Shown piece by piece: positions 5,171 to 33,457 of a stretch of 64,000 nt of DNA. The notes beneath the pieces are model-generated. The model saw only the letters and a program-made list of their open reading frames with translations. It searched no databases and had not been told where the DNA came from. Numbering within the stretch: position 1 is the first letter of the stretch; each line of letters starts with the position of its first letter. The position numbers and the translations under genes were made by a program. Source of the stretch: Acidobacteriaceae bacterium (GTDB lineage Bacteria; Acidobacteriota; Terriglobia; Terriglobales; Acidobacteriaceae); assembly GCA_030041435.1 (NCBI GenBank), contig JASHNW010000019.1, positions 1 through 64,000 of the forward strand, given 5' to 3'.

Positions 5171-5211
5171 CGCAACTCCTCACTGTGCCCTGCGCGCCCC
5201 GAGTACGAGCG

Positions 5212-6330: not shown

Positions 6331-6396
6331 CGTTTTTCCACTCCTCAGGCAGCGGCTGGCGCGGGCATTGCGCGCGGACAGGCCGGATAATCCGGT

Positions 6397-7581: not shown

Positions 7582-7705
7582 GGGCGCCTCAGGCTTATGC
7601 GTTGCGATGCCGCGCAGAATTCCAGTAGAGAACGGGATCTCTGCATCGGCGAGCGGATGGCATGCTCCGCCCGCCGATGGCGGTCGTTCCTGAACAGCTC
7701 GTCGC

Positions 7706-11674: not shown

Positions 11675-11701
11675 AGACTGCGCGTCTCTTATCGTCCGGC
11701 G

Positions 11702-11820
11702 CTATAGCAGTTTCGGAATTGGTGTAGACCGAAGGCACACGCTCAAGTGGCTTTTTAATCAGGAAAAAGCCACCCTGTACCGGCCTCAAAAAGTCTGCGT
11801 GTATTCCGAAACTGTTCTAG
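11702..11820. repeat. 119-bp imperfect palindromic element (MITE-like or bidirectional terminator)
   Basis: The outer arms are CTATAGCAGTTTCGGAAT (11702-11719) and ATTCCGAAACTGTTCTAG (11803-11820), which match at 16 of 18 positions when one is inverted. At the centre is a perfect ten-base stem, GTGGCTTTTT (11747-11756) and AAAAAGCCAC (11764-11773), with a seven-base loop. Both outer ends carry TA, compatible with a TA target duplication. The right arm supplies the TAG stop codon of the convergent GH130 gene. The central stem with T and A tracts would also act as a terminator in both directions. Confidence 0.6.
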
Positions 11821-12950
11821 TGACTCTCGAGTTCTTCTCCCGGCCCTGGTGCTATGGCAACCGCCACCAGCGAATCGGCGCATCCATAATAGAGCAGCCA
11901 CTGGTGGTGAAAGCAGACCAGGCCCTCGGCAAAGGTCGTTCCGGCCTCGTACTGGCCGGTCTTCTCGTAAGGAAAAGTGGGTTTCAGAACCGGATCGTCC
12001 GTTCGCGCCAGCAGATGCGCGGGATTCTGTGCGTCGAACAATGCTTCGCCGGCGGAATAGGTATTTGCCTCGAGCTGCGGATCGCCGCCGGAAGCGGCAT
12101 TTTTGCCGTTGTAGATCACAACAATTCCGCGCTGGGTGAGCACTGGCGGTGGGCCGGTTTCCGGGAAACTGCTGTCGAAGCGGCCGGGCCGCGGCCTGAG
12201 CACCTGGACAGGTTCGCCGCGCGCATCTTCAACTGGCATCCAGTGGATCAGATCCTGAGAGGTGGCAAGATGTATGGCGCCCTCGCCCCAATACATCCAA
12301 TACCTGCCGCGAATGCGAACCGCGATCAGCCTGCCGTCGCGCAGCGCCGTCACAATACCCGCGGACTTATACTTCAGGTTCGCGTACTTTCCCCCTTCCG
12401 CATCGAGAAAGGCGGGGCCGTGTTTGGTCCAGTGCTCGAGATCCGGCGAGGTGGCGATGCCGACCGAATAGGTCCTGCGATTCCATTGTGTATAAGTCAG
12501 CACATACGTGCCGTCCTCAGCTTCGACAATGCGCGGGTCTTCGACCCCGCCCGGCCACTCACGTAACTCCTGGGTGTCGCGAGCCGGGAAAAACACCGGC
12601 GTGGCGCGGCGGGTGAAGTGAATCCCGTCAGCGCTCTCGGCAAGTCCCAGCCGCGAGGTGTGCATCCCGATTTGCATCGCGCCGGTATCGTCTTCGGCGC
12701 GATAGAGCACATCGACGACGCCGTTCCGCACCACGGCGGCGGGATTAAACGTGTGCAGCGCCTCCCAGTGCACGGCGGTTCCGCGGATGGGATCGTGAAA
12801 CACCGATGCGGGGTTGGGAGCGATCACGGGGTTTCCGGCGGCCGGCCGCGTGAAGGGCCCAATTTGCCAGGATCGGTGCCCGGTCTGCTGCGCGCCTGCG
12901 AGCAGCACGGCAAATATCGGCGCCAGCATTCTGCGCGGAATCGGCAGCAT
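11817..12950 (-). CDS. GH130-family glycosidase/phosphorylase, secreted
   Basis: A 377-residue protein with a signal peptide (MLPIPRRMLAPIFAVLLAGA). I chose the ATG at 12950 because GGAGG lies nine bases upstream. An ATG at 12983 has no ribosome site. The five-bladed propeller shows GH130 hallmarks: ALHTFNPAAVVRNG, LYRAEDD, GGVEDPRIV and FPETGPPP. GH130 enzymes phosphorolyse or hydrolyse beta-mannosides. An exported member without access to phosphate donors in the cytoplasm is more likely a hydrolase (inference). It ends inside the right arm of a palindromic element. It is the last gene of the long minus-strand run that includes the CRTAC and multiheme genes, with a 68-base gap to the preceding gene. 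Confidence 0.75.
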   Translation of the reverse strand: MLPIPRRMLAPIFAVLLAGAQQTGHRSWQIGPFTRPAAGNPVIAPNPASVFHDPIRGTAVHWEALHTFNPAAVVRNGVVDVLYRAEDDTGAMQIGMHTSRLGLAESADGIHFTRRATPVFFPARDTQELREWPGGVEDPRIVEAEDGTYVLTYTQWNRRTYSVGIATSPDLEHWTKHGPAFLDAEGGKYANLKYKSAGIVTALRDGRLIAVRIRGRYWMYWGEGAIHLATSQDLIHWMPVEDARGEPVQVLRPRPGRFDSSFPETGPPPVLTQRGIVVIYNGKNAASGGDPQLEANTYSAGEALFDAQNPAHLLARTDDPVLKPTFPYEKTGQYEAGTTFAEGLVCFHHQWLLYYGCADSLVAVAIAPGPGEELESH

Positions 12951-13018
12951 CTTTCGTATCCTCCGCTCGACAGCTTTGGCCATATCGGACGAAATGACGT
13001 CCCGAGACCTGGTATGGC

Positions 13019-13516
13019 TCAGAAGAGATTTCCGGCTACCTGCTCCGCGAGCTGCTCCAGCGGATCGTCCTGCTCGTCCGAGGACTTTGGCGGTCGCTTA
13101 TGCCCGCGGAGAATCAGGGCGAAATGGACGTCGCGCACCCTGCCGCTCACCATTTCCGCCATCGCGCCATGCGCGCCAGGAAGCCGGCACCTGACCGCCT
13201 CATTGCCGATTCCGGTCAGCGCGGTGCCGTTCTCCGGGCAGGCGGTGTTGCTGGCTGCGCCGACGAGAATCTCCAGCGATTCCGTGGGCGGGTTGCCTCG
13301 CGAAAACCGGCAGGCGCCCTCGTCGGGATTCGTCACAGTAACGGTGACAGATACGTCTCCGCCCAATACCCTGGCGGCGCTACCCTGCGTGAGCCATGGA
13401 CAGGCCGCCGGCGGTGCTGGCTGCGCTTGCGGGACAGCGTTAGGAGCAGTGCTCTGCGACGCCGCCGGTGAAGCGCAGCACGCAAACAGCAGAGCTGGTA
13501 AAAGGAGCGCCCGCAT
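13019..13516 (-). CDS. Hypothetical secreted protein
   Basis: A 165-residue protein that I do not recognise. It has a short signal peptide (MRALLLPALLFACCASPAAS), in which FAC-C could also be a lipobox. An Ala/Pro/Gln linker follows, then a domain with CPWLTQGSAARVLGG and four Cys residues after the linker (CPWL, ACRFS, TACPE, VRCRLPG) that could form two disulfides. The tail is charged. The layout resembles DUF3558-like or other small secreted domains, without a firm match. Its start is three bases past the CRTAC stop codon with no Shine-Dalgarno, suggesting translational coupling to that gene. Confidence 0.6.
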   Translation of the reverse strand: MRALLLPALLFACCASPAASQSTAPNAVPQAQPAPPAACPWLTQGSAARVLGGDVSVTVTVTNPDEGACRFSRGNPPTESLEILVGAASNTACPENGTALTGIGNEAVRCRLPGAHGAMAEMVSGRVRDVHFALILRGHKRPPKSSDEQDDPLEQLAEQVAGNLF

Positions 13517-13519
13517 CGT

Positions 13520-15424
13520 TCAGGGCCAGGTCTTCCGCTTTGCCGCCGGCATAGGCCCGGAACTCAGAATTCTCCCGCCTTCCTGGATGACATAGAGTTG
13601 ATTCACGGCGAGGTTCCGCACCTGGTCCACCTGGCCTGAGAGCCAGCGTATCTCAACCATATCCACCTGCTTCGCCTGATCGAGCCCGAAATGCATGCGC
13701 AGATCGTTTTGCGAGAAGTAACTCCCGCCACTGCGCAGTTCATCCATCTGCGCCAGGGGCTTCGCGGCGCCGGGAACGGTTGTAGCCGTAACCGTAACCC
13801 GGCTCCCGATGCCGGAACGGTTCGACTTCACCCCCACGAGTTTGATCTTGATCCAGTTGCGATTCAGGGTAGAGTCGCAGCGGAGCAGCTGCGGCAGAGC
13901 GTTGATACAGTTGACAGCGACATCGATGACGCCATCGTTGTCGTAATCCCCGAAGGCAGTGCCGCGCGCAGGAGCATTCTCCAGAATTCCCGGGCCGCCC
14001 TGATTCGTAACATCCTCAAAGCGTCCGTTACGCAGGTTTCGGTACAAATATTTGTGCTCGGCGTATTTCAGGTCGGCATTGGACTTATCGACTTCGGGAT
14101 ATACATGACCGTTCGACATAAGGATATCGAGCCAGCCGTCGTTATCCATATCGAAGAATCCGACGCCCCATCCTAACAGGCGAGTATTGACGCCTAACCC
14201 GCTCGGATAGGTTCTGTCTTCGAAGTTAGCATCGCCAAGATTCGTGTAGAGGGAATCGGTATCGCCCGCGAAATTTGTTTTCACGACGTCCAGATTGCCG
14301 TCGCGATTGTAGTCTCCAATAGAGACGCCCATACCCGCCTGTGGTTTGGCTTCCGCCGACAGCGCGGCGCCCGCCTCGATCGCTATGTCACGGAAGGTAC
14401 CGTCTTTCTGGTTGAGGTAGAGGGTCGCGGGAGCGGAATCGTTGGCGACATAGATATCGGGCCAGCCGTCGTTATCCAGATCGGACGCAGCCACGCTCAG
14501 ACCGTAGGTGCCCACTGCGGTCCACATCCCGGCCTTTTCGCTGACATCGGTGAACGTCCCGTCTCCGTTGTTGTGGTAGAGAATATTCCTGCCCCCGGGC
14601 AGTCCTGGAGGACCGCAGGCCACCAGCATTCCTTTATAGGTGCAGGGCCCATCCTGCGGGCGCGGCGCCGTTTTCAGATCGAGATCGACGTAGTTGGCCA
14701 CAAACAGGTCGAGGTGGCCGTCGCGATCGTAGTCGACGAAGGTGCAGCCGGTGTTCCACCTGGTTTTGGGACCCGGCTGCATCAGCCCGGCCTGCTCAGT
14801 AACATTTGTGAATCTGCCATCGCCAAGATTGCGATACAGGGCATTCTGACCGTAGTACGTGACGAATAAGTCGTCGTGGCCGTCGTTGTCGTAATCGCCC
14901 ACGCAGCAGGCCTGTCCCCACCCCGTCTTATGCTCCAGACCGGAGCCTGCGGTCACATCGGTGAAGGTGCCGTCGCGATTGTTCTTAAAGAGGTGACAGT
15001 GCGGCTCGCTGCCCGGAGCGAATCCTTCCAGGCGCCAGCCATTCACCAGGAAAAGGTCGAGCCAGCCGTCGTTGTCGTAATCGTAGAAAGCGAGGCCGCA
15101 GCCGGTTGTCTCCAGCAAATATTTGTTCGCGCCTACATCGCCGTAGATGGTTTCGACGTCGAGGCCGGAATGCTGAATCACGTCGACAAAAGATACTCCG
15201 AGAGGAGTTCCTTCAATCGGCGATTTCGGTCCGGGCGGCGGTGGGGCAGGCCTGGCGTCGTAGGTACGCTCCTGCGGTCCGATTTTTATGGGATTCTCAG
15301 GAGCAGTCTGCGCCTGCTGCGGCGGAGGCGATGCCAGAGCGACGATATCGGCAAAGGGCAAAACCAATGCCGTGCGGCTGAGGGAGTGGATAAACCTGCG
15401 GCGATTCAAGGAATGACCCTTCAC
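13520..15424 (-). CDS. CRTAC protein: FG-GAP/VCBS propeller plus ASPIC/UnbV domain (copy A)
   Basis: A 634-residue exported protein. The N-terminus, LNRRRFIHSLSRTALVLPFAD, is a twin-arginine-like signal (identified by its RRRF core). Residues about 90-500 carry repeated DYDNDGxxDLF units (for example FYDYDNDGWLDLFLVNGW), the calcium-binding FG-GAP/VCBS repeats of a seven-bladed propeller. The last 110 residues form an ASPIC/UnbV domain (IGSRVTVTAT, GGSYFSQNDLRMHFGL, EIRWLSGQ). Such proteins are predicted extracellular binding proteins with no known enzymatic role. The ATG overlaps the stop of the five-heme gene by four bases (ATGA), so the two are translationally coupled. It is paralogous throughout to the 21263-23140 protein. 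Confidence 0.85.
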   Translation of the reverse strand: MKGHSLNRRRFIHSLSRTALVLPFADIVALASPPPQQAQTAPENPIKIGPQERTYDARPAPPPPGPKSPIEGTPLGVSFVDVIQHSGLDVETIYGDVGANKYLLETTGCGLAFYDYDNDGWLDLFLVNGWRLEGFAPGSEPHCHLFKNNRDGTFTDVTAGSGLEHKTGWGQACCVGDYDNDGHDDLFVTYYGQNALYRNLGDGRFTNVTEQAGLMQPGPKTRWNTGCTFVDYDRDGHLDLFVANYVDLDLKTAPRPQDGPCTYKGMLVACGPPGLPGGRNILYHNNGDGTFTDVSEKAGMWTAVGTYGLSVAASDLDNDGWPDIYVANDSAPATLYLNQKDGTFRDIAIEAGAALSAEAKPQAGMGVSIGDYNRDGNLDVVKTNFAGDTDSLYTNLGDANFEDRTYPSGLGVNTRLLGWGVGFFDMDNDGWLDILMSNGHVYPEVDKSNADLKYAEHKYLYRNLRNGRFEDVTNQGGPGILENAPARGTAFGDYDNDGVIDVAVNCINALPQLLRCDSTLNRNWIKIKLVGVKSNRSGIGSRVTVTATTVPGAAKPLAQMDELRSGGSYFSQNDLRMHFGLDQAKQVDMVEIRWLSGQVDQVRNLAVNQLYVIQEGGRILSSGPMPAAKRKTWP

Positions 15425-17637
15425 GGTTTCCGGGCCTGGGCGACAGCCTCGCTTCCCTGCGGAAGCTCGGTGTGCAGATGCCAGGGAACACTTTCGTTGG
15501 AGATTTCGGGGTGGTGACGCAGATAGTCGAGCGAATAGGTGGGCGCGGAGGGGTCTACCCGCTTGATGGTATAGAGTTCCGCTTGCTGCGCCGCTTTCTG
15601 CTTCATGCCCATCCTGCGATACAGGATGGCGAGATTGTAGTGCGCTGCAAGATCGTCGGGATCGATGGCCTGAAGAGCCTGAAACTGCTGTACGGCTTCC
15701 GCGCTGCGATGTTGCTGATACAGCGAGATACCCAGATCCCGGCGCGCATCGCGGCAGTCGGGAAAGCGCGCCACAACTTTTTCGAGATCGGCGACCTCTG
15801 CCTGAGAATGCCGTTCCCGGCGCTCCACCTGCGCCATGTAATAAAGAGCGCGCGGGTCATCGGGGCGCAGCGCGAGCGCCTTCTCCAAAGGAGCGCGGGC
15901 CGCGGCATATTTTTCCCATGAAAGATAGGTAATCCCCAGGTTGACGTACCCATCCTTATAGTCCGGCATCAGGCGCACGACCTGCTGGAAGGCCTGCAGG
16001 GCATCGGCATACTGCTGCTCGTCGAGCAGCCCGATGCCGAGGTTGTTCCAGCGCATCCAGTCCGGGTTGTCGCCGGCCAGCGGCGGCGACACGGGATTCA
16101 CACCCAGGTTGACCGTCCTGGATTTCTCGGCCAGCTCCACCACCGGATAGGCAGGATGGTCTTTTCCGAACACATTATTCAGATAACTCTGACGGAGATG
16201 GCGGTAGTTGATTCGCGCGGTTATGGTCAGCGGTCCCCTGGCATCCGCGGGGATTCGAAACTGGTACCGAATCAGCACAGATCGTCCGGCCTGGATGGTA
16301 TTGTCGTAGGCCACGGAATGAATCGTCCAGACTTTATGGTTGTCGACAAAATCGCCGCTGGTATCGACCGGGCGATTATCAAAAATATGCGCGCGCTCGT
16401 CGAGCATACCGTCCGGTTTCAGGTAGCCGCTCTCATCAATCGTCGCGCCCGAAGCGTCGGTGACGCTGAACTGGACCCACGCCTGATAGAGGTCACGCAC
16501 TTCGGGAAGAAGAGAGTGGCCGATCCCCTTGCTTTGAATAACGACCCACGTCTCCACCACGGAATCCGGCTGCAGCGTGAAGGGCTCAGAACCCAGCGGA
16601 GCCACGAGGGCGCCGTCTCCCACCTTTAACCCGAACAGGTCGATGTTGAGATAGTCGCCGCTCTTGAGAAATGCGATGGTTTGATCGAGTTGCTCGTCGA
16701 ATTTGTAGTAGAAGGGAACGGCTGTGTTCCCCGCCAGCCATCGATGCGAAGCCAGCATGCCCTGGCTCGCGCCGTAATCCGGCAGCTGGATGGGGGTGCG
16801 CTTCATGTGGCAATCCTGACAGGTTTTGAAGTCTCCTGGGTAGAAAGTCAGAGGGTTCTGCTGCGAGAATTTCGAGTTCTGCCACTCGTCATAAGTGGTA
16901 AACGCGCGAATCCACTTATAACCGTTCAGTTGCGGCGGCAGATTGGCCTTGTGGCAGGCGGAGCAAAATACAGCTGTCCGATAGAAGTCCTGCATGACAG
17001 CCTTCGCATGGCGATCGACATGAGCCAGGATTTCGGAGTCGGGAGGAATGCCCGGCAGGCGATTGCCCTGGGCGTCGACCATGACCGCGGGCACTCCCAT
17101 CACAAAGCTTCCATTGCCCAGCTTGCTGTCGACGCTCTGGATGGAATGGCAGGTCATGCAGGTTAAGCCATTTCGATCGAAGGAGCGATCGAGGGTGAAA
17201 CCCGGATCGAGCGCGCCCGCGAGCACGGCGACGGGATTGTGACAACTATCGCAGTGCCGCGCAAACGCGATTCCCTTCGTCCGTATCAGGATGTTGACGC
17301 TGGCGCGATAGAAAGGCGTTCGGAAGGAATTGGAGTGCAGCGCCTGGCGCCATTCGTGGTACGCCTCCTGATGACAATGCCCGCAGTAGGCGGCGTCGGG
17401 AAAGGCGCTCGCGGGAAGAAAGTCGTCGCCCACGACTGCCGCGTTCCCCGGTCCCGAGATGTTGTCTTTCCCGAAAGAAAAACTGTAGTTGTCGCGAATC
17501 TTATCGGCATAGGCGGCGCGGGCGCTGACGGCCTGGGCGCGCTGGTCCTCATCGGACTGGAACGCGCTGAGGCGCAGTCCCGACACGCCCGACAGGATCA
17601 GGATCACGGGAAGCAGGTACCGGACGCCGAGTTTCAT
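15421..17637 (-). CDS. Five-heme cytochrome c fused to TPR repeats
   Basis: A 738-residue exported protein with an N-terminal hydrophobic signal (residues 5-25). The CxxCH heme sites are CGHCH (85-89), CDSCH (129-133), CMTCH (160-164), CSACH (225-229) and CQDCH (273-277). The first lies in a context (CGHCHQEAYHEWRQALHS) like cytochrome c554-type proteins. A beta-rich middle (about 300-510) follows, then at least four TPR units (about 530-710; for example DALQAFQQVVRLMPDYKDGY). It precedes the CRTAC copy A gene with a four-base overlap. A TATAGT hexamer on the minus strand at 17723-17728 may be a promoter -10 element for this pair. The predicted role is periplasmic or surface electron transfer or redox catalysis; the substrate is unknown. 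Confidence 0.85.
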   Translation of the reverse strand: MKLGVRYLLPVILILSGVSGLRLSAFQSDEDQRAQAVSARAAYADKIRDNYSFSFGKDNISGPGNAAVVGDDFLPASAFPDAAYCGHCHQEAYHEWRQALHSNSFRTPFYRASVNILIRTKGIAFARHCDSCHNPVAVLAGALDPGFTLDRSFDRNGLTCMTCHSIQSVDSKLGNGSFVMGVPAVMVDAQGNRLPGIPPDSEILAHVDRHAKAVMQDFYRTAVFCSACHKANLPPQLNGYKWIRAFTTYDEWQNSKFSQQNPLTFYPGDFKTCQDCHMKRTPIQLPDYGASQGMLASHRWLAGNTAVPFYYKFDEQLDQTIAFLKSGDYLNIDLFGLKVGDGALVAPLGSEPFTLQPDSVVETWVVIQSKGIGHSLLPEVRDLYQAWVQFSVTDASGATIDESGYLKPDGMLDERAHIFDNRPVDTSGDFVDNHKVWTIHSVAYDNTIQAGRSVLIRYQFRIPADARGPLTITARINYRHLRQSYLNNVFGKDHPAYPVVELAEKSRTVNLGVNPVSPPLAGDNPDWMRWNNLGIGLLDEQQYADALQAFQQVVRLMPDYKDGYVNLGITYLSWEKYAAARAPLEKALALRPDDPRALYYMAQVERRERHSQAEVADLEKVVARFPDCRDARRDLGISLYQQHRSAEAVQQFQALQAIDPDDLAAHYNLAILYRRMGMKQKAAQQAELYTIKRVDPSAPTYSLDYLRHHPEISNESVPWHLHTELPQGSEAVAQARKP

Positions 17638-17797
17638 GGGCTTCAGGGGCGAAACCGCTTATCGGTTGACGTATTTCTGACGCAGCACAGGATCTGAGAT
17701 AGCCGCAGGAAAAGCCTGAGGCACTATAGCAAAACCATTGCAGCGCTGGATACGGAAAAGCATGGCGCCGGAAGCCCGGAAACATACCCATGCGCGA

Positions 17798-19576
17798 TCA
17801 CGGATGACCCTGCTGCTGCGCCGGCGTCTGCAGGGCTTTCGCTTTCTGCCTTTCAATGGCCGCCTCGCCAACCTTGCCCTGCCGCTGAAGCGCGTTGGCG
17901 AGACCGAGATGAGCCTCGGCGTAATCGGGATCGAAACTGAGCGCGTCGCGAAACGCCACGATGGCGTCGGCGACCTTGCCATTCTTCAGCAGATCGTTGC
18001 CGGAATTGCTGGAAACTTCGGCCCGTTGCCGGTTCATGTTGGCGCGCATCAGATCGGCCGCTTTGCGGCGCTCCGCAGCAGCCTGCGTCGGCTGATTCTG
18101 TTTCACCAGCACGGCCGCATAGGTGAGATACGGATCGGGCTGGCCGGGCCGCTGCCGAATGGCTTCCTGTAAAGCCGCTGCCGCTTCAGGCAACTGGTCA
18201 AGATGGTTGTAGACGCTTCCCAGCGTCGCCCATCCATCGCCATTGGCGGGCTGGAGGCGCAACGAGGCGTTCAGTTCCCGCGCCGCGTCGGCGTAACGGC
18301 CGGCCTGCAGATACAGCAAGCCAAGGGCGTAAGGCGCTTCGGGCGAGGAGGGGGCGAGAGTCTCGGCCTTCTGGAACTCGGGGATCGCGTCGGCGTCATC
18401 GTCCTTCATCTTCAAAGCGAGGCCGAGGTTGTAATGCAACTGGGGCGCGTCCGGCGTGAGCTCCAGTGCGGCGCGCAGCTGAGTCACCGCATCGTCGAAC
18501 CGGCTGAGCTGGATATAGGCGGCGGCAAGATTCTCGTGAGCCGTGGGGTTTTGCGGGGCGAGCGAGACGGCGCGCTCAAGAAGCGGAACCGCATCCGTCG
18601 CTCGCTGTGCCTGGCAAAGCGCCATGCCGAGATTGGTCAGAGCGTCTGGATTCGCCGCATCCGCCGCGGCTTTCTCGAGCAGCGGGATGGCCTCATCCAC
18701 CTGATTCGTGCGCTGCAGCACCAGGCCGAGCTGATAGGCTGCCGCGGTCGATCCGGGATTGAGCGCCACGGCGCGGCGCAGGACCGGGAGCGCGTCCTGG
18801 TCGTTTCCGGCGGCTGCGAGCGTCTGGCCGAGCTCCAGCGCAATCGCGGCATTGCCGGGCGCGAGATCGTACGCCCTTCTCAGCTCCTGCAGCGCGCCGG
18901 GCTGCTGTTCGGCTTCGAGTGTCACTCCCAGATGGAAATGAGCCATCGCCAGCCCAGGATCGATTCGCAGCGCGGCGCTGAATGCCTGTTGCGCATGGAT
19001 CCAGTCCCGCTGCTGTGCGTAAATCGCGCCTAATTCGTCCTGCCACTCGCCGTTACGCGGAGCTTCCGCCGCCGCCTGCTTCATCTTCTCCACGGCGGGG
19101 CCAGGCTGCCCGGCTGCGGCCAGGCATCGCGCGTACTCTGCAAGAACCGCAGCCTGCAGTGGACGCTTTTCACGGCGAGACGCTGCTTCGAGTTTCGCAA
19201 ACCACGGGAGCGCTTGCGCCGGCTGCCCGCTTTGCTGCCAGGCGAGCGCCAGGTTTTCCTGCGCACTGGTGTCGCCAGGCTTCATGGCCAGGGCCTTCTC
19301 GAGTTCACGAATACCGGCCGCCGTCTCTCCCAGCCGCACCAGAACCCCGCCCAGAGCGCTGTGACCCTGTTCCGCGGAGGGAGCCAGGCGCACGACATTC
19401 TCAAAATCGACGCGCGCCGCCTGAAGGTCGCTGCGGGACAGCGCGGCCACGCCTGCACGATAATCGGCGTCCGCCTGCCGCAGGCTCGGCGATGGTTCCT
19501 GCGCGCCGCACATCGCGGCCAGGGCCAGGCATGCAGCCAGCCCCGCCAGCCACGCGTTGAGGAGATGCAGACGCAA
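17798..19576 (-). CDS. Long secreted TPR protein (copy A)
   Basis: A 592-residue protein of about 14 TPR units after a signal peptide (LLNAWLAGLAACLALAAMCG). I chose the TTG at 19576. GGAG lies upstream at an ideal distance, and the reading frame further upstream would overlap the seven-heme gene and lacks family resemblance. It aligns along its whole length with the 582-residue protein at 23434-25182, including CGAQ at the mature start, NPDALTNLGxAL/EPLTNLGLAL, NGDGWAxLGSVY and RKAADLxRxxxNRQRA near the end. TPR arrays mediate protein-protein contacts. Here it probably scaffolds envelope redox proteins encoded next to it (inference). It lies 29 bases after the seven-heme gene. Confidence 0.8.
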   Translation of the reverse strand: MRLHLLNAWLAGLAACLALAAMCGAQEPSPSLRQADADYRAGVAALSRSDLQAARVDFENVVRLAPSAEQGHSALGGVLVRLGETAAGIRELEKALAMKPGDTSAQENLALAWQQSGQPAQALPWFAKLEAASRREKRPLQAAVLAEYARCLAAAGQPGPAVEKMKQAAAEAPRNGEWQDELGAIYAQQRDWIHAQQAFSAALRIDPGLAMAHFHLGVTLEAEQQPGALQELRRAYDLAPGNAAIALELGQTLAAAGNDQDALPVLRRAVALNPGSTAAAYQLGLVLQRTNQVDEAIPLLEKAAADAANPDALTNLGMALCQAQRATDAVPLLERAVSLAPQNPTAHENLAAAYIQLSRFDDAVTQLRAALELTPDAPQLHYNLGLALKMKDDDADAIPEFQKAETLAPSSPEAPYALGLLYLQAGRYADAARELNASLRLQPANGDGWATLGSVYNHLDQLPEAAAALQEAIRQRPGQPDPYLTYAAVLVKQNQPTQAAAERRKAADLMRANMNRQRAEVSSNSGNDLLKNGKVADAIVAFRDALSFDPDYAEAHLGLANALQRQGKVGEAAIERQKAKALQTPAQQQGHP

Positions 19577-19605
19577 AGTTGCTCCAGCCGCCACAGGGTA
19601 GCAGT

Positions 19606-21261
19606 TTAAGGATGTGCGCAGGGCTGCGCGCCAGCGGCAATCGCCAGCGACAGTCGCCGGGCCGCGTCGTTGTCCGGAGAGAAGAGCAGGACGCGGCGCA
19701 GGGTCTGTGCAGCCGCTTCCGCGCCGCCGGAGCGGCACTGCGCAATGGCGAGATCGATGCCCGCGGCGCTGGCCCCGGGGTCGTGCTGAAAGACGGATTG
19801 CCACAACGGCAGGGCCGCAGCGAAATCGCCGGCCTGCGCATCCAGAACGGCGAGGTCCCCGGCCGCCGTTTCGTTGAAGGGATCGGCGTGCAGCGCCTGC
19901 TGGTATTCAGCTTTCGCCCGCTCCCGATTTCCGCTCACCTGCTCCAGAAATCCGAGTTCCATATGCAGCTCCGCGTCGGACGCCTGTGCGGGATCGGCCG
20001 TCTCGGCCTCGAGCAGCAGGCGCATCGCGCGTTCGCCGGCGGCCCGGTCGCCGCGCAACGCCAGCTGCGCCCATGCCACTCCTTCATCGCGCGCGCCGGG
20101 GTGAAGACCGCCGATTGGAACCAGCTCGTCCGCGGATAACGGGCTGACAAACGGCTTCGAGACAATCTGGATGCGGTGGTCGGTTACCTGCTCGTGCGCG
20201 ATATCCTGGGTCTCCTCACGCGGCATGTGGCAGGAGGTGCAGTCAGGATTGTCGGCATGATGGCCGGAAGCGAGGCCCGCATGGCAGGCGAGGCACTTGC
20301 CTCGATAAAACGCGACACGATCTTCCGCGGCAGGCGAAGAGTGAGGATCGTGGCAGGTAGTGCAGGTGAGGCGATCGCCACTCGCCCGCTTGCATGCGCT
20401 CTCCAGCAGCGATTCCCACTGGCTGGTGGCGCGTCCCCCAGGGCCGGCCTTGCGCCCATCTTCAAAATACACTGCCTCGTCGAAGAGATCGTCACCCGGC
20501 CGGAATGCGCCCAGTTGCTGTCCCCGCTTCACGACGGCGACTTCTCCTTCCAGATGACATTCGAGGCAGATGGAATCGCGGCGGACCGGATCCAGGCTGG
20601 AGGGATTCAGGATGGGCCCCCTGCCGTGTTCGGCGAGGTGCCGGGACGGATCGCCATGGCACGACGCGCAGGAAATGCCTCCACGCGGAAACGGAAGTCC
20701 CTGGAAGTGGTTGCGTGCATCGGGCAGCGACGCCTGCACGTTGCTGGCGTGGCAATGCAGGCAGCCGGGATCGACAGGCAGAGTCAAAGGCATCTCGCGC
20801 GCGTCGAGGAAATTGGGCGTCATGTCCCAGAGCTGTTTTTTCGCATACCAGTTAATGGGAATTTCGTACCAGTAGCCCTCGCGCTCGAAGATCCAGGTGC
20901 GGCCGCGCCGGCCCGATCCGAGATAGTAGCGAAGCAACACTTTCCCTTTCAGCGCGCGATCCGGAGCGGCGTTGGGCCGTTCCCAGGAAAGCCACACCTG
21001 GCCCTGATCGAGAATCGTCCGGTAGTGCACCCCGGAGGCGGCGTGGGTGAAATCGGCCGCCATGAACCCCTCGGCGGCGGGCCCGGAGGCGTGCGCCATG
21101 GGTGTGCGCTTCCACGAATCGTAAATCTGCCGGTGGCAGGCGGCGCAGACCGCATCAGGATCCGGCGGCGGCGCGGAAGATTCGGGACGAACGCCGGCAT
21201 AGGCGAGAACGCCGGCCGCCATCCAGCAGGCTGTGAGCAGGGCAGCCCAACGCCGACGCAC
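19606..21261 (-). CDS. Seven-heme cytochrome c fused to TPR repeats
   Basis: A 551-residue exported protein with a signal peptide (about residues 5-23). The CxxCH sites are CAACH (39-43), CLHCH (167-171), CASCH (198-202), CLECH (232-236), CTTCH (300-304), CLACH (323-327) and CTSCH (341-345). They are arranged like octaheme and multiheme reductase/oxidase-type TPR cytochromes. Five or so TPR units follow from about residue 385. The start is a GTG one base after the stop of CRTAC copy B, indicating translational coupling. The heme part is not obviously homologous to the five-heme protein beyond the CxxCH pattern, so the equivalent position in the duplicated cassette is filled by a different cytochrome type. 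Confidence 0.85.
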   Translation of the reverse strand: MRRRWAALLTACWMAAGVLAYAGVRPESSAPPPDPDAVCAACHRQIYDSWKRTPMAHASGPAAEGFMAADFTHAASGVHYRTILDQGQVWLSWERPNAAPDRALKGKVLLRYYLGSGRRGRTWIFEREGYWYEIPINWYAKKQLWDMTPNFLDAREMPLTLPVDPGCLHCHASNVQASLPDARNHFQGLPFPRGGISCASCHGDPSRHLAEHGRGPILNPSSLDPVRRDSICLECHLEGEVAVVKRGQQLGAFRPGDDLFDEAVYFEDGRKAGPGGRATSQWESLLESACKRASGDRLTCTTCHDPHSSPAAEDRVAFYRGKCLACHAGLASGHHADNPDCTSCHMPREETQDIAHEQVTDHRIQIVSKPFVSPLSADELVPIGGLHPGARDEGVAWAQLALRGDRAAGERAMRLLLEAETADPAQASDAELHMELGFLEQVSGNRERAKAEYQQALHADPFNETAAGDLAVLDAQAGDFAAALPLWQSVFQHDPGASAAGIDLAIAQCRSGGAEAAAQTLRRVLLFSPDNDAARRLSLAIAAGAQPCAHP

Positions 21262-21262
21262 C

Positions 21263-23140
21263 TCAGGCCCGCCTCATCTCAGGCAGCAGATACGCCTTCG
21301 GTTCTCTTGCACCCTCCTCCACGAGGTATAACCGATCCGCCGGAAGATCTCTGAATGTATCGACCTGGCCGGAAGGCCAGCGGACTTCGATCTCGTCGAC
21401 TGTCTTTGCCTGATCGAGCCCGAAGTGGAGGCGCAGGTCGCTCTGAGAAAAGTAGCTGCCGCCGCTGCGCACCTCGTCGATCAACACCAGCGGCGCCGGC
21501 CGGTCCGGCTGCGTTTTTGCCACTACGCGCACGCGCGCGCCAATGCCCGTGCGGTTGGACCGGACTCCGGCGAGCTTGACCTTCACCCAGTGGCGTCGCC
21601 AGGTCGAGTCGCAGCGAAGCAGTTGCGGGAGGGAATTCACGCAATTCACCACGACATCGATATCGCCATCGTTGTCGTAGTCGCCAAAAGCGCAGCCGCG
21701 CGCCGGAACGGCAGCGGTAATGCCGGGCCCGCCCTCGGCGCTTACGTCTTCAAAGCGTCCATTGCGCAGGTTGCGGTAGAGGTACTTGTGCTCGGCGTAC
21801 GGAGCCTCCGTCTTGACGGTGCTCACTTCCGGATAGACATGGCCGTTGGCGACAAAAAGGTCGAGCCACGCGTCGTTGTCCATATCGAGAAAGCCGATGC
21901 CCCAGCCCAGATAGCGGGTGTTGACGCCCAGCCCGGATTGGTAAGTTCGGTCTTCAAAGTTACCCGCCCCGAGGCCGGCATAAAGCGAATCGGTGTCGCC
22001 GGCGAAATTTGTCTTGGCGATATCCAGCCAGCCGTCGCGATTGTAGTCGCCCACCGTCACGCCCATGCCGGCCTGCGGCCCGCCATCGGGCGAGAAAGCA
22101 ACGCCGGCTTCAATGGCGACGTCGCGAAACGTGCCGTCCTTCTGGTTCTGATAGAGCGTGGCTGCCGTGGAGTCGTTGGCGACGTAGATATCCGGCCAGC
22201 CGTCATTATCGAAATCGGCGACGGCTACGCCCAGCGCATAGTTGCCGTAGGTATTCCACATCCCGGCCTTCTGGGAAACATCGGTAAACGTTCCATTGCC
22301 GTTGTTGTGATAGAGAATGTTCTTCCCCGGAGCCAGTCCCGGAGGACCGCAGGCCACCAGGATGCCTTTGTACAGGCATGGGCCGGACTCCGGCAGGGGC
22401 GCCGTTCTCAGATCGAAGTCGATGTAGTTGCTGACATAAAGGTCCAGATGGCCGTCGCGGTCGTAGTCGAGAAACGCGCAGCCGGAATTCCATCGCGTCG
22501 TGGGTTGCACGAGCCCCGCCTTCGCCGTTACGTCGGTAAAGGTTCCGTCGCCGTTGTTGCGAAACAGCACGTTCTGCCCGTAATAGCTGACAAACAGATC
22601 GTCCCAGCCATCGTTATCGTAATCGCCTACGCAGCAGGCCTGGCCCCATCCGCTGCGACCCAGGCCGGATTTTGCGGTGACGTCGGTGAAGGTTCCGTCG
22701 CGGTTGTTGCGGAACAGGTGACAAGTCGGCTCGGCGCCCTTCGCAAATCCCTCCAGGCGCCAGCCGTTCACCAGGAAGATGTCGAGCCATCCGTCCTGAT
22801 CGTAGTCGTAGAAGGCGACCCCGCAGCCGGTGGTTTCCAGCAGATATTTATTCGTTCCCTCGCCGCCGAAGATCGTCTTCGCGTTCAATCCGCTCTGTGT
22901 GGCGACATCGACAAATTGCACCCCGAGGGGAGTTCCGGCAATTGGCGAGACCGGTCCGGGCGGCGGGGGCATGGGCTTTGCGCTGTACGACTGCTGCGCG
23001 CCGGGCTTGCCCGCCGGCGCCTGCTGCGCGGCCATCGGCGCATCGCGCTTCCATGGAGGCGTGGCCAGCCGCAGCACATCCGCAAAGGGCAGGACGAGCG
23101 CGCTGCGGCTGAGCGATCCCAAAAATTGCCGGCGATTCAT
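21263..23140 (-). CDS. CRTAC protein: FG-GAP/VCBS propeller plus ASPIC/UnbV domain (copy B)
   Basis: A 625-residue exported protein starting MNRRQFLGSLSRSALVLPF, a twin-arginine signal nearly the same as in copy A (SLSR-T/S-ALVLPFAD). The propeller repeats FYDYDQDGWLDIFLVNGW, CVGDYDNDGWDDLFVSYYG and others follow, then the C-terminal ASPIC/UnbV domain (IGARVRVVAKT, GGSYFSQSDLRLHFGL, EVRWPSGQ). It aligns end to end with copy A. The Asp-rich loops suggest calcium binding. It is 293 bases downstream of the long TPR gene, with a mobile-element-like repeat in the gap, and one base from the seven-heme gene. CRTAC proteins are mostly uncharacterised. Confidence 0.85.
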   Translation of the reverse strand: MNRRQFLGSLSRSALVLPFADVLRLATPPWKRDAPMAAQQAPAGKPGAQQSYSAKPMPPPPGPVSPIAGTPLGVQFVDVATQSGLNAKTIFGGEGTNKYLLETTGCGVAFYDYDQDGWLDIFLVNGWRLEGFAKGAEPTCHLFRNNRDGTFTDVTAKSGLGRSGWGQACCVGDYDNDGWDDLFVSYYGQNVLFRNNGDGTFTDVTAKAGLVQPTTRWNSGCAFLDYDRDGHLDLYVSNYIDFDLRTAPLPESGPCLYKGILVACGPPGLAPGKNILYHNNGNGTFTDVSQKAGMWNTYGNYALGVAVADFDNDGWPDIYVANDSTAATLYQNQKDGTFRDVAIEAGVAFSPDGGPQAGMGVTVGDYNRDGWLDIAKTNFAGDTDSLYAGLGAGNFEDRTYQSGLGVNTRYLGWGIGFLDMDNDAWLDLFVANGHVYPEVSTVKTEAPYAEHKYLYRNLRNGRFEDVSAEGGPGITAAVPARGCAFGDYDNDGDIDVVVNCVNSLPQLLRCDSTWRRHWVKVKLAGVRSNRTGIGARVRVVAKTQPDRPAPLVLIDEVRSGGSYFSQSDLRLHFGLDQAKTVDEIEVRWPSGQVDTFRDLPADRLYLVEEGAREPKAYLLPEMRRA

Positions 23141-23165
23141 CGTGAGAAAACTAACACAGCCATGC

Positions 23166-23436
23166 TAGAGGCTGTTATTAACTTTCGCGCGGCCGGCGTT
23201 GCGAGGGAAAATCGGGCCAGACGAAGCCGAGCCCGAAGGCTGTGGCGGGCCCACTGTCGAGGGCGAGAATGAAGTATGGCCCGATTTTCCCCGCAACCCG
23301 CAGGGCTGGGGTCCATTTTCCTCATTTGATCGTCGCTCGTCGCTCGCAGACTCCCGGTATGCGTCGCTCCTTGTTCCTCGAACTGAGAAAAATGGGCTCC
23401 CAGCGCCGGTCGTGGGAAAGTTAATAACAGCCTCTA
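23166..23436. mobile_element. MITE-like non-autonomous element with perfect 19-bp terminal inverted repeats
   Basis: The ends are GAGGCTGTTATTAACTTTC at 23168-23186 and its exact inverse at 23416-23434, each flanked outwardly by TA (23166-23167 and 23435-23436). That fits a 267-bp element with a TA target duplication, as in IS630/Tc1-like or some IS5-group insertions. No transposase fits inside. A second, nested perfect 15-base inverted repeat, GGGAAAATCGGGCCA, lies at 23205-23219 and 23277-23291. A weaker one pairs CCATTTTCCTCA with TGAGAAAAATGG in the right half. The right end supplies the TAG stop of the long TPR gene. Confidence 0.7.
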
Positions 23437-25182
23437 AGGTTTTTTTGCAGTGAGCGCCTCGGCCTTCTGCCGTTCCGCGGCGGCTTCGGCGGTGCGGCCC
23501 TGCTCGGCCAGCGCCGCGCTCAGCTGCAGGTGGGCATCCGCATAGTTTGGGTCGCTGCCAATCGCCTCCTGGTACCGCGAGATGGCATCGGCAATAGCGC
23601 CCTTAGCGAGCAGGGCATTGCCGGCATTGGTGTCAAATACAGCGCGCTGGCGATTCACCGCAACCCGCGTCAGATCCGCGGCCTTTTTGCGTTCCGCCAT
23701 CGCTTCGTCCTGCCTCCCCTGTTCCTGCAGAACGCTGGCCAGGGTGATGTGAGGACCAGGCTGGTCGGGCAGCAGTTCGATAGCCTTCCGTAAAGCCGCC
23801 GCTGCGTCGTCATACTTGCCCTGCTGGCGGTAGACGCTGCCCAGAACCGCCCATCCGTCGCCATTTTGCGGACGACGCTCCAGCGCCTCGCGAAAATTCC
23901 GTACCGCATCGTCGAACCGGCCATCCTGCATATAAAGGATACCCAGCGTATACGGCGCATCGGGCGATTCCGGATCGAGGCGGAGCGCGGATTCCAGCTC
24001 GGCAATCGCGTCCGGCAGATCGTCTTTCAGCTTGAAGGCCAGCCCCAGATCGTAGTGCAGGTGAGCGTCCTCGGGAGCGAACTTCAGGCCGGTTTGAAAT
24101 TCGCGGACCGCGTCGTCCACGTCGTTCTCCTGCAGATAGGCGACGCCGAGATCCTGATGAACCGTGGGGCTCTCGGGCGTGAGCGCGGCCGCCCGCAGGT
24201 AAAGAGGGACAGCCTCTTTCGCCCGACCGGTCTGCACCAGCGCCAGTCCCAGGTTGGTGAGGGGTTCGGCCTGCTGCGGGCGCGCGTCGACCACCTTTTG
24301 AAAGAGAGGAATCGCATCGGTCTCTTTGCCCGAGCGCTGCAGGGCCAGCGCCAGCTGATAGTCCGCGTCGAGCAGGTTCGGATCGAGTGCAATCGCCTGC
24401 TGGAAATGCGGAATGGCGTGCTCGTCGTCGTTGGCCGCTTCGAGCGCGTTCCCCCACTCGAACTCGACGGAAGCGTTGTGAGGATCGAGCTGCGCCGCGA
24501 GGGTGAACTCCGCCGCAGCGCGGTCCATCCGCTGTTCGTGGCTCAGCACTGCCGCCAGGTGCAGATGCGCTGAAGCCATCCCGGGGTCGATCTGAAGCGC
24601 TTCGCCCAGGGTTGTTTCCGCATCCGTCCAGCGGCCGGCCTGCGCGTAGAGCGATCCCAGCTGGTCAAGCAGGATGACATTCTGCGGATCGGACGCGACC
24701 GCCCTCCCCATGATCCCGATGGCGCCCGCGGTGTCGGGCACAGCAGCCAGGTCCCGCGCCCAGACGGCCAGTAAATCGGCGCGGAGCGGAGATGCGCGGT
24801 CCATTGCCTCGAACAGCGGAATCGCTTTGTCCGGGGATCCGATCTGGCTGTAAGCCTCGGCCAGATTTTCCTCCGCATTGCGGTCGCCGGGGTTCAGCTG
24901 GAGGGCGGTTTCCAGCTCCGCGATGGCCTGCGGATACTGGCCCAGGGCATAGAGCACAACCCCCAGCGCGCCGTGCCCCTCTTCAATCCCGGGCGCCAGT
25001 TGAACGGCCAGACCAAACTCAGTGCGCGCCGTATTCAGATCGCCTCGCGTATACGCGTCCGTGCCCGCGCGAAAGGCCTGATCGGCTTGCTGCATCGCGG
25101 TTTGCTGTGCCCCGCACAACACCGGTTCGGCCAGCAAACAAGCCGCCAGCGCCAGGCAACGCCGTATTGACTTCGAGTCCAT
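23434..25182 (-). CDS. Long secreted TPR protein (copy B)
   Basis: A 582-residue protein with a signal peptide (IRRCLALAACLLAEPVLCG) and about 14 TPR units through its length, for example AIAELETALQLNPGDRNAEE and DAVRNFREALERRPQNGDGW. It is paralogous to the 592-residue TPR protein at 17798-19576, sharing the distinctive C-terminal RKAADLTRVAVNRQRA region. Its TAG stop is made from the last bases of the MITE-like element, so the original C-terminus may have been altered. The shared family ending (ERQKAxAL) is nevertheless intact, so the loss is at most a few residues. It starts 14 bases after the preceding TPR gene. AGGAG abuts the ATG directly, suggesting coupling. Confidence 0.8.
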   Translation of the reverse strand: MDSKSIRRCLALAACLLAEPVLCGAQQTAMQQADQAFRAGTDAYTRGDLNTARTEFGLAVQLAPGIEEGHGALGVVLYALGQYPQAIAELETALQLNPGDRNAEENLAEAYSQIGSPDKAIPLFEAMDRASPLRADLLAVWARDLAAVPDTAGAIGIMGRAVASDPQNVILLDQLGSLYAQAGRWTDAETTLGEALQIDPGMASAHLHLAAVLSHEQRMDRAAAEFTLAAQLDPHNASVEFEWGNALEAANDDEHAIPHFQQAIALDPNLLDADYQLALALQRSGKETDAIPLFQKVVDARPQQAEPLTNLGLALVQTGRAKEAVPLYLRAAALTPESPTVHQDLGVAYLQENDVDDAVREFQTGLKFAPEDAHLHYDLGLAFKLKDDLPDAIAELESALRLDPESPDAPYTLGILYMQDGRFDDAVRNFREALERRPQNGDGWAVLGSVYRQQGKYDDAAAALRKAIELLPDQPGPHITLASVLQEQGRQDEAMAERKKAADLTRVAVNRQRAVFDTNAGNALLAKGAIADAISRYQEAIGSDPNYADAHLQLSAALAEQGRTAEAAAERQKAEALTAKKP

Positions 25183-26288: not shown

Positions 26289-29200
26289 TTAGAACTGCAC
26301 GCGTCCGGAGAACTGCAGCTGGCGCGGATTGGTGTAAATGCCGAGCGCCGGCTCGCCGGTGATCGTCCCCGGTGCATTCGTGAGTGTGGTGGACGGAGTG
26401 CCGGGATTGATGTGGTTGAATCCGTTGAACGCATCGATCCGGAACTGCGCCAGAATGCTCTCATGGATGGGGAAATTCTTCTGGAGTGAAAGGTCTCCAT
26501 TAAAGTAGCCCGGCCCATAGAAGCTGTTTCTTCCGATATTTCCGAACTTGTCGAGACCCGCTTCCGTGAATGTCCCGGCGGCAGGCGTTTGCCAGAAGGT
26601 CCGAGTGTGACTGACTGCATCAAACCCGGACAAGCTGGTATGGAGAGCACCCCTTCTGCCCACCGGGTAACAGGGCGCGCTGCCCGGAACCGAAGCGCCG
26701 CATCCGCCGCCGACATTCAGAGTGAAAGGCAAACCATTCGACCAGTTCAGGACGGGACTGAATTGCCACCCTCCGATGACCTCGTCCTCCCAGCGTGGAG
26801 CATTGCCGGCAAGCATCTGGCCGCGGCCGAACGGCAGCTGATATATACCGTAGATCACCAGTTGCTGGGTGCGGAGCCAGTCGTCCGGTCCGTAGGTCGC
26901 GGCCTTATCCCAGGTGTAGAAGCCGCTGTTGAAGTTGAAGGAGCGCTGCCATGCATACTGGACGTTGAAGGACAGGCCACGCGTATATTGCTTGGCCAGG
27001 GTCACCTGCAGCGCGTTGAAATTGGTGTTCTGGTCGTCGCCGTAGTAGCTGATGCCCTGCGTCCATCCGCACATCCCGGGTGCGACGAAAGGCTCGTTCA
27101 GCGCCATCAGCTGAGCTTCATAACTGCCATTCGTACAGGCGGTCAGTCCGCCCCCGTAGAAGCGGGAAAGGAAGTTTGAGGTCGATGTTCCGCCATTCGC
27201 CGCAATCGCGCCGCCGGCGACGCTCGGGTCGTAGTGCAGCGCCGAGCCGTTCACGCTGTAGACCGATGGCAGGAACATGCCCTCCTCATTGGGATTGGTG
27301 TTGTTGCCGTCGCCCGCGCTCAGCGTGTGCGTTCCCTTGTTTCCCACGTAGGCGACCGTAATCGAGAGCGTCGGTGTCAGAGCGCGCTGCACGCTGAGAT
27401 TCCACGCGTCGAGGGTGGGCAGCCGCAGGGTGTTGGGCCGAGCTTTAGGGCTCACGTTAAAGCCGGGGGCCGGCAGCAATCCGTTGGAAGGCACGGCGGG
27501 AAATACATTGGCCGGCGGACCCGTCGCGAGAGTAAAGGCCGCGCTCGTGGTTGTAGGCGCGCTGACCGACTGGTTGGCGAGAACCGGCAGGTTCTGCGTT
27601 ACCACGTGACCGAAGATCGATCCGAACACGCCGAGGTCAAAGCTGCGCCCGTAACCGGCGCGCACCACTGTCTTCTGATCCGGAGACCAGGCGACTCCGA
27701 TGCGGGGATTCCAGGCGTTGGTAGCGGCGCCCCACCCCATGTCGCTGGGAACGTTGCCATAGCCTGCGACCCGCAAATAGCCATCGGTCTGGTAGCCAGC
27801 CGACCCGCCATTGAGTTCCATCAGGGCGCCGTTGCCTTTGCCGTTCACGGACTCAGGGGAATACAGCTCGTACCGCAGTCCGTAGTTGATGGTCAGCGAC
27901 GGGCGGGGACGCCAGGTATCCTGCGCATAGAAGAAGTCGCGCTTCTGGAATTCCTTGGCGTTGGTGGAAACGCTCACGTAACGGTTGAAGCTGGACACGT
28001 TGCCGAGCACAAAGCTGGCCATGCCCAGGCCGCCCGAGCTGCCCCCGTTGGAAGTCGGTCCGGGAGCGAAGTTCAGCAGCCCGGTGCGGTCGGAGTCGCT
28101 GGGTACGCGCAGGTTGCGTGCGTAGCGGAGATCGACGCCGAACTTGTAGGCGTGATTCCCGATGATCTTCGTCCAGTTGTTCACAACCTGGAACTGATCC
28201 TCGCGTTCCGTCAGCGGACAATTGCAGCGGGTGATATTCAGTCCCGATCCGTACTGAGCGCCACCGCCGGTCGGGTTGCTGGGGCCGTTAGGCGCGAATA
28301 TGTTTGCATCTGCGATGTTGAACCCAGGCGCGCCGCTGGTGAAGGCGTTGCCTGGAATGTTCATGCCGGGTATGCCGAGTTGGGTGGCAAATTCGGTTGT
28401 CTGGTCGTATTTGTGGTCGATGACGTTATAGCGGTAGTAGCCCAGCCGGAAGTCGGTCAGCAGCGTAGGACCCACAGTAATATCCATGCCCGCCGCCAGG
28501 CTGTCGTCGGCTCCCTGGGAAACGCCTCCGTAACCTCCGATGCCAAAGCCGGGTCCTCCCGCATCCCCGAACATGGTGGTGCCGGAGAGCACATCGGTGA
28601 AACGGCTGAATCGCCCGAATGCATGCATGCTTTGGGACAGGGTGTCATCCACGCGGACGTCCCACTGGTTGTTGTTGAAGAGGCCGGTGCCGCTGGCGGC
28701 ATAGTTGTCCATCACAGCGCCAGCTCCCCCCTTATTGGGAGCGTAAGGCTGCAGCAGCTTCAGCAGGGCCAGCGCCTGCGACGATAACTGAGCTGTGGGG
28801 ATCACATTGCCCGGATACGGCACCGAGCCACCCGACGTCTGCTGGTAGATCAGCTGGGGCTGGCCGGCAGATGTTGCATACTCACTGAAATCGCAGCCCG
28901 CAATCCCGTTACTCGCCGTCGCCTGCCCCAGGCACGTCGAGATCAGGTGCGCGGTGGGAACAGTCGCGGTTGCCGCCGTGCCCACTTTCTGCCGAACGCC
29001 CTGGTAGTCGCCGAAGAAGAACAGATGGTCTTTGAAGATCGGACCGCCAACCGATCCACCGAACTGGCTTTTCAATCCGGGCGGGAAAGTGGTGCCTGGG
29101 AACTGGGTATAGGGATCGCGGCCAAGGTTCGCGCTGCTCTCACGATAGTCGAATGCACTGCCGTGGAAATGATTGGATCCCGACTTCGTCTGCGCTGAAA

Positions 29201-33322: not shown

Positions 33323-33457
33323 CGTAAACGAAACCACAGGACACCGCGGCCGGAAGGCGCGATGGGAAGATCCCGCCAAAAAAATCTGTCCGTGTCACGG
33401 CCTGCATTGGAGCCGCCGGATTGCGTATGATGCAGTACGCGAAGGGTGGAGCTGAAT

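Follow-up and report, generated by a model that had tools for sequence, protein, structure and literature searches.

What do two neighbouring sets of genes for TPR proteins, CRTAC propellers and multiheme cytochromes encode in the genome of a soil acidobacterium, and do they form one system or several? We addressed this question for a 64,000-nucleotide stretch of an Acidobacteriaceae genome (contig JASHNW010000019.1, assembly GCA_030041435.1), hereafter called the window, whose own genome comprises 5.77 Mb in 134 contigs. An earlier note on this DNA had described the region as a duplicated triplet, each copy consisting of a long TPR protein (TPR_A or TPR_B), a propeller (CRTAC_A or CRTAC_B) and a cytochrome (CYT_A or CYT_B). 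A check of the open reading frames (ORFs) recovered all six genes at the positions it had given, all on the minus strand (Table 1). Motif counts likewise agreed with its heme numbers of five for CYT_A and seven for CYT_B, and both propellers carry the N-terminal SLSR(T/S)ALVLPFAD that it had read as a twin-arginine translocation (Tat) signal. Of the tight couplings that it reported, the single base between CRTAC_B and CYT_B in set B was confirmed; the overlap of CRTAC_A with CYT_A in set A reads GTGA and not ATGA. Sets A and B are two anciently diverged, separable modules that stand side by side in the window. The element that recurs across genomes is the pair of a pentaheme cytochrome and a CRTAC.

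Pairwise BLAST comparisons bore out the relatedness of the propellers (69% identity over 627 aa) and of the long TPR proteins (47% identity over 563 aa), and the trees agree. The cytochromes gave only weak matches, the best being a TPR stretch of 97 aa (E = 0.004), and CYT_B appears from its sequence to be a heptaheme protein unrelated to CYT_A. In a TPR tree of 34 rows, TPR_A fell in a clade of 13, ten of which (window included) lie beside pentaheme genes. TPR_B fell in a clade of three with TPR genes from TBDT-TPR-TPR_B-CRTAC loci, where TBDT denotes a TonB-dependent transporter. A CRTAC tree of 149 rows, built with a quick method that gave long-branch warnings, placed CRTAC_A among 25 CRTACs, most of which follow a pentaheme gene, and CRTAC_B apart from them in a four-row clade; both are inside one clade of 39 rows.

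The two sets can also be found apart. In the same-genus genome G133, module B and GH130 are contiguous on contig C58 (locus L085, TBDT-TPR-TPR_B-CRTAC-CYT_B-GH130) and module A is on another contig, C14 (L045, TPR_A-CYT_A-CRTAC-SM). The gene order of locus L205 is CYT_B-TPR_A-CYT_A-CRTAC-SM-GH130. The gene order of the window would fit a module B into which module A has been set, between CYT_B and GH130. Since the cytochromes are unrelated, the paralogy of the other genes is ancient and the modules are on separate contigs in G133, we rejected a tandem duplication of the triplet, and the description in the earlier note did not stand.

To place the window among its relatives, we used 120 loci fetched around chosen hits (three of them via a PF13435 search) and 80 further loci from one genome-collection scan, which were the best 80 of at least 590 matching stretches. 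Near-copies, recognized by identical segments of 100 to 150 residues, were counted once. Adjacency within 350 bp, 3 kb or 5 kb was counted on all six-frame ORFs. Counts based on gene calls (the control genes, the single-heme proteins and the loci from other families) may be low, as the genes for TPR_C and TPR_B in L085 had been called as antisense ORFs. Relatives were classed by bit score to the window protein, with A1 above 620 in the six-frame recount, the CYT_A tree and the single-heme count, and above 700 in the gene-call count.

Of 150 genomes of the order, 104 have relatives of CYT_A (E <= 1e-5). A CRTAC on the same strand was found within 350 bp of 45/49 A1, 14/15 A3, 18/49 A2 and 4/11 A2b genes. 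When directly adjoining genes were counted on gene calls, the fractions were 20/20 for A1, 13/16 for A3 and 10/21 for A2, with short or overlapping gaps between the paired genes. Only 4 of 315 unrelated control genes had such a neighbour; these were genes of at least 250 aa, over three genes away from any multiheme gene, taken from the same first 120 loci and not from random genome places.

The phylogeny of the cytochrome strengthens this association. A tree of 55 CYT_A proteins, restricted to ORFs of at least 600 aa, contained an A1 clade of 46 rows, including the window, and in every one of the 46 a CRTAC adjoins the cytochrome gene, upstream in 24 and downstream in 22. The four rows that have none fall outside this clade, beside the A2 outgroup. 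In the CRTAC tree, the upstream and downstream neighbours belong to two distant lineages. Side labels mapped on the CYT_A tree required two changes, which is the minimum possible, against a mean of 19.5 for shuffled labels. This pattern is consistent with one partner switch. Such a change of partner lineage, which keeps a CRTAC beside CYT_A, is the strongest evidence of functional coupling, and as far as sequence can tell the propeller and the cytochrome probably constitute a working unit. The earlier note had named two observations that would count against a module, namely the lack of a conserved neighbourhood and copies that are not each other's relatives. Instead, a CRTAC-cytochrome neighbourhood is conserved in related genomes and the copies are mutual relatives.

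The TPR scaffold, which the same note had taken as a regular part of each module, fared worse. A TPR_A-type gene (>200 bits) was located within 3 kb of 10/21 A1 genes with a downstream CRTAC and 0/24 with an upstream CRTAC, and we rejected the idea that the pentaheme module always includes one. As a separate observation, three contigs named Pseudomonadota (L172, L176 and L181), all from one bog genome project, carry the acidobacterial module and are probably misbinned or misnamed.

As for module B, CYT_B relatives were found in 93 of the 150 genomes (E <= 1e-5). A TBDT lies within 5 kb of 18/24 B1 and 13/21 B2 heptaheme genes, and a TPR gene within 3 kb of 13/24 and 11/21, respectively. Same-strand CRTACs were within 350 bp of 10 of the 45 B1 and B2 genes together and of 2/21 B3/4 genes, and an obligate partnership of CYT_B with CRTAC was rejected on the former count. 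CYT_B associates more with TBDTs, TPR genes and a copper-monooxygenase-like protein than with CRTAC. As only five non-motif His are conserved in CYT_B, along with Met55 and Met346 (46 rows), a Met-ligated or open heme is possible.

The copper-monooxygenase-like protein (at least 51% identity) is present in 22 of the 150 genomes. The B1 heptaheme protein (at least 48% identity) occurs in 17 of these 22 versus 13 of the 128 others (p 1.8e-10, uncorrected for kinship, with the genome sets transferred by hand from search tables), and the two genes are within about 10 kb in 7 of the 17 genomes that have both. The window member scored 11.4 bits against PF03712, below the gathering score of 23; at E up to 10, PF03712 matched 7/7 members, the best at E 0.003. 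H189 and H190, H263, H330 and H332 (HxH) and M382 are invariant in all seven members, and HH, H, HxH and M are what we take to be the ligand pattern of copper type II monooxygenases. A PF03712 search of the own genome returned 0 matches, and the 14 control genomes were likewise empty. The best rows of a PDB profile search with this domain were weak cytochrome c6 matches.

What, then, might the locus do? Its minus-strand order is TBDT1, TPR_C, TPR_B, CRTAC_B, CYT_B, TPR_A, CYT_A, CRTAC_A, SM, GH130, TBDT2, two DUF4185 genes and an esterase. This run extends beyond the six genes of the earlier note, which mentioned neither the TonB-dependent transporters and glycosidase genes nor the divergent copper-monooxygenase-like gene. 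Like the SusC/SusD polysaccharide utilization loci, it combines glycoside hydrolases with transporters that bear CarboxypepD_reg, and both TBDT1 and TBDT2 are SusC-like. Unlike those loci, it adds multiheme cytochromes and CRTACs and has no SusD: SusD_RagB PF07980 gave 0 matches in the own genome, and the control matched in Bacteroides ihuae. The TPR proteins may stand in for SusD. We give an even chance to the reading that this region is a TonB-dependent nutrient-acquisition locus, Sus-like in role, that carries envelope redox modules in which the cytochrome relays electrons between its CRTAC/TPR partners and the respiratory chain; each of the individual steps we hold to be less probable than that.

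In this scheme, module B comprises TBDT1, TPR_C, TPR_B, CRTAC_B and CYT_B together with the divergently encoded c-heme/copper-monooxygenase-like/TPR protein, and module A comprises TPR_A, CYT_A, CRTAC_A and SM, between CYT_B and GH130. The TBDT would import a ligand, probably derived from a glycan, and CRTAC would bind the ligand or a partner through its calcium-blade propeller. We infer a complex in which CRTAC and cytochrome would be kept together, at the outer membrane or in the periplasm, by docking to the TPR proteins and to the TPR tails of the cytochromes. The cytochrome would carry electrons from the CRTAC site to the respiratory chain or in the opposite direction, either through the quinone pool or through a small cytochrome c. 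The copper-monooxygenase-like protein would probably consume the electrons in module B.

The electron link in this scheme is proposed because of three features of CYT_A relatives. Firstly, 22/49 A2 and 7/11 A2b genes directly adjoin a gene for a small protein that has a single heme motif. Secondly, seven A2 loci that have no CRTAC (L069, L073, L074, L076, L077, L078 and L083) are divergently beside a complex I (nuo) operon, whose identity was confirmed by Pfam for three representatives from L073 and L077. Thirdly, ten A3 proteins of ~940-1000 aa (L146-L150, L152 and L154-L157) have three to six N-terminal hydrophobic segments, with His in two segments in seven proteins and in one segment in three. 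These segments are possibly a quinol-linked anchor; in the one protein examined, the N-terminal region contained no known Pfam domain. The link to uptake and glycans is proposed because of the TBDTs near B1 and B2 loci, the GH130, trehalase and DUF4185 genes of the window, and the sugar genes of L236. In this Blastocatellia-type locus, genes for a c-type cytochrome, GH13, GH77 and again GH13 come after the pentaheme gene, and beyond one further gene there is a major facilitator superfamily transporter. Gene sizes are similar in L235, L242 and L243, and we read the neighbours in L226 as GH13-like.

Several counts weigh against this uptake-and-relay scheme. Of the A1 genes that have a CRTAC, only 10/45 are near a TPR_A-type gene. 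No CRTAC adjoins 31/49 A2 and 7/11 A2b genes, so the pentaheme protein can do without CRTAC. A TBDT is within 5 kb of only 13/49 A1 loci, and module A is therefore not tied to uptake; among the compared loci, we found no conserved substrate gene for it. Single-heme neighbours are rare for A1 (2/49) and absent for A3 (0/15). On the side of module B, a same-strand CRTAC is directly beside (within 350 bp of) only 4/24 B1 and 6/21 B2 genes, and the monooxygenase-like protein is missing from 13/30 B1 genomes; where a genome has both, its gene is distant from the heptaheme gene in 10 of 17 cases.

The AlphaFold2 model of CYT_A (pLDDT 89.3) had as its best Foldseek match the pentaheme c552 5ze8 (E 8.4e-13, 480 columns, TM score 0.66 for the target and 0.37 for the query). 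This structure was not among the best 50 VIA-align rows, which were TPR-type matches, and the heme half is assigned on the basis of the Foldseek match and the sequence. All five CxxCH motifs are invariant in an alignment of 59 rows (A2), and the predicted model shows the features of the PHC fold, including the beta-sandwich. Outside these motifs, His 101, 210, 298, 374, 417 and 434 in the heme/beta half and His 720 and 722 near the C-terminus are invariant in the same rows. The conserved His would be in keeping with bis-His ligation of all five hemes, and so with a relay. Going by the model, CYT_A joins a TPR tail to a pentaheme body of the ExtKL/c552 PHC fold. It shares five CxxCH hemes followed by an Ig-like/beta-sandwich domain with the PHC family (T. 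tepidum c552 5ze8, Geobacter ExtKL, Gsu2801 and cable-bacteria sPHC/lPHC). The TPR tail, the pairing with CRTAC and a score of only 34.6 bits against the ExtKL equivalog NF040886 (cut-off 250) set it apart from these members.

A paper on cable bacteria (PMC11976967) links 5ze8 by structure to the cable-bacteria PHC/ExtKL group and describes the PHC family with Geobacter ExtKL as related to the archaeal cytochrome nanowire AvECN. This kinship favours a role in extracellular electron transfer, with CYT_A and CYT_B in an outer-surface conduit or filament and CRTAC and TPR proteins as surface anchors. We consider such a role unlikely: the outer-membrane protein encoded at the locus is a TBDT, the match of CYT_A to ExtKL is far under the cut-off, and CYT_A relatives are located beside complex I and sugar genes. 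The porin MtrB_PioB PF11854 also had 0 matches in the own genome, in a search with a weak control (1/14 genomes, below cut-off).

Both CRTACs belong to the CRTAC/ASPIC-UnbV family by their domains, FG-GAP_3 PF13517 (~186 bits) and UnbV_ASPIC PF07593 (73.1 and 76.8 bits, cut-off 23.4). To our knowledge, no reaction has been assigned to this family in bacteria. The AlphaFold2 model of CRTAC_B (pLDDT 87.8) matched murine CRTAC1 9etn first by both Foldseek (E 1.1e-30) and VIA-align (Z 40.2, 457 residues, 22% identity). An FG-GAP propeller with a UnbV domain is common to both. Unlike murine CRTAC1, the window proteins are bacterial, have a Tat-like leader and are encoded beside multiheme cytochromes. 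Putative calcium-type loops (D-x-[DN]-x-DG) are visible in the CRTAC sequences. A Tat-like RR motif is present in the first 60 residues of 9/10 TPR_A/B-linked, 20/39 A1-linked and 4/22 A2-linked CRTACs and of 207/1147 other genes, so the leader is not common to all CRTACs.

The CRTAC_B model also resembles GlcNAc-binding PVL-type lectins (Foldseek E 1e-9) and aldos-2-ulose dehydratase (Z 27.6, 361 residues). With glycosidase genes close by, this could mean that CRTAC is an enzyme or lectin for oxidised (keto) sugars and that the cytochromes accept electrons from periplasmic sugar oxidation. However, the likeness is at the level of the fold, where non-sugar propellers match as well or better (LGI1, Z 31). 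Because many unrelated propellers match too, no function can be taken from the fold. Among the neighbours of module A that we inspected, no sugar dehydrogenase gene was identified, and we think oxidative sugar processing improbable.

CRTAC genes are abundant in many Acidobacteriota. PF07593 had 20 matches in the own genome and up to 46 in one genome; it was present in 41 of 99 sampled Acidobacteriota and not found in the other 58. For a wider sample, 20 of the 35 genomes from other families that had a match each contributed their best hit, and neighbours were counted around the CRTAC nearest the locus middle. A TPR gene was within two genes in 12/20 of these loci versus 7/50 for the background, and a gene with at least four heme motifs in 4/20 versus 1/50. 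In addition, we counted, at one match threshold, nine natural TPR-CRTAC fusions of 688-1259 aa (L145_1, L145_2, L146_10, L147_10, L150_12, L151_2, L157_9, L237_3 and L253_12).

The abundance of CRTACs and the loose neighbours of CYT_B would be expected if expanded CRTAC, TPR, TBDT and cytochrome families simply piled up in catabolic islands without a joint function. The unbroken A1 clade (46/46), the partner switch that kept a CRTAC in place, the short or overlapping gaps and the TPR-CRTAC fusions argue against this explanation, to which we give little credence. That TPR proteins and CRTACs are maturation factors for envelope cytochromes and not working parts is very improbable: TPR domains are common in cytochrome biogenesis and CYT_A relatives adjoin complex I genes, but the 20 CRTAC matches of the own genome exceed its PF13435 and CYT_B-like matches (six each), and CRTACs elsewhere have TPR neighbours (12/20) more often than multiheme neighbours (4/20).

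An association of CRTACs with heme proteins also exists in another setting. In a 2025 study (PMC12758564), a CRTAC1 family gene is located between heme-protein genes in HZS-like alpha / CRTAC1 / beta-gamma clusters. The same order was found in the acidobacterial locus L245 (4461-9637), which belongs to the wider sample of 20 loci, with an HZS_alpha PF18582-like gene, a CRTAC and an octaheme gene that has a weak HZS-beta match and is cut by the contig end. The window differs from such clusters in its PHC-type and heptaheme cytochromes and in its TPR and TBDT partners, and no HZS subunit matched among all Pfam and NCBIfam rows of CYT_A, CYT_B and both CRTACs. We tentatively suggest, as a possibility on the doubtful side, that CRTAC1-type propellers generally serve multiheme redox proteins of bacteria as docking or substrate partners, in a new class of envelope complex here and in HZS-like complexes elsewhere. 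If so, a family that includes vertebrate CRTAC1 would gain its first functional handle on the bacterial side. The near-obligate pentaheme-CRTAC pair offers a concrete, testable partner for the abundant CRTAC/ASPIC-UnbV genes of Acidobacteriota, and if the redox reading is true, these soil bacteria couple outer-membrane nutrient uptake to multiheme electron transfer. No description of the module was found among the open-licence papers searched, including passages of PMC12758564, PMC3174227, PMC3123361, PMC11976967 and PMC8023676.

Table 1. Genes of the two modules and their surroundings in the window.
Feature	Coordinates	Strand	Basis
TBDT1, Oar/SusC-like TonB-dependent outer-membrane transporter	26289..29924	-	CarboxypepD_reg PF13620 + OMP_b-brl_4 PF25183, 612.6 bits
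TPR_C, secreted TPR protein, 341 aa	25197..26222	-	Pfam; relatives, e.g. L085, also have a TPR gene after the TBDT
TPR_B, long TPR protein, module B	23434..25182	-	Pfam TPR arrays; G133 ortholog 73% identical; tree
CRTAC_B, FG-GAP/ASPIC-UnbV propeller, Tat-like leader	21263..23140	-	Pfam, tree, AlphaFold2 model
CYT_B, heptaheme cytochrome, short C-terminal TPR	19606..21261	-	7 CxxCH
TPR_A, long TPR protein, module A, TTG start	17798..19576	-	Pfam TPR arrays; tree
CYT_A, pentaheme cytochrome (predicted PHC/c552 fold) + beta-sandwich + TPR tail	15421..17637	-	Pfam, AlphaFold2, Foldseek
CRTAC_A, FG-GAP/ASPIC-UnbV propeller, Tat-like leader	13520..15424	-	Pfam, tree
SM, small secreted protein, 165 aa, kept beside CYT_A/CRTAC_A	13019..13516	-	Same family in 14 further loci
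GH130, beta-mannosidase-like, directly after SM	11817..12983	-	PF04041 141 bits; NCBIfam BT3780-type 466.8 bits, below cut-off 550
Monoheme c + copper-type-II-monooxygenase-like + TPR protein, divergent from TBDT1	30965..33172	+	Sub-threshold PF03712; invariant residue pattern
TBDT2, second TonB-dependent transporter	7706..11671 (listed ORF; true start probably internal)	-	Pfam PF25183 + PF13620

Some smaller features of the locus remain. An in-frame TTG, 15 bases inside the listed start, may be the true start of CRTAC_A; the protein would then begin with MNRRRF, resembling MNRRQF of CRTAC_B. SM had no match in Pfam or NCBIfam, and its homolog none in Pfam. A scan for promoters and terminators was uninformative, with three promoter-like sites against 4.5 expected and 23 terminator-like sites against 15.1 expected. 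Glycan-type enzymes surround the modules at 4352-12983 and 33446-35185 of the window (GH130, two DUF4185 proteins, an esterase and a trehalase), and the trehalase gene comes after the divergent gene at 30965. Elsewhere in the own genome, clustered genes whose products have 10, 11 and 13 CxxCH motifs (L158, G000:C23:84700-103000) possibly encode a separate electron-transfer system.

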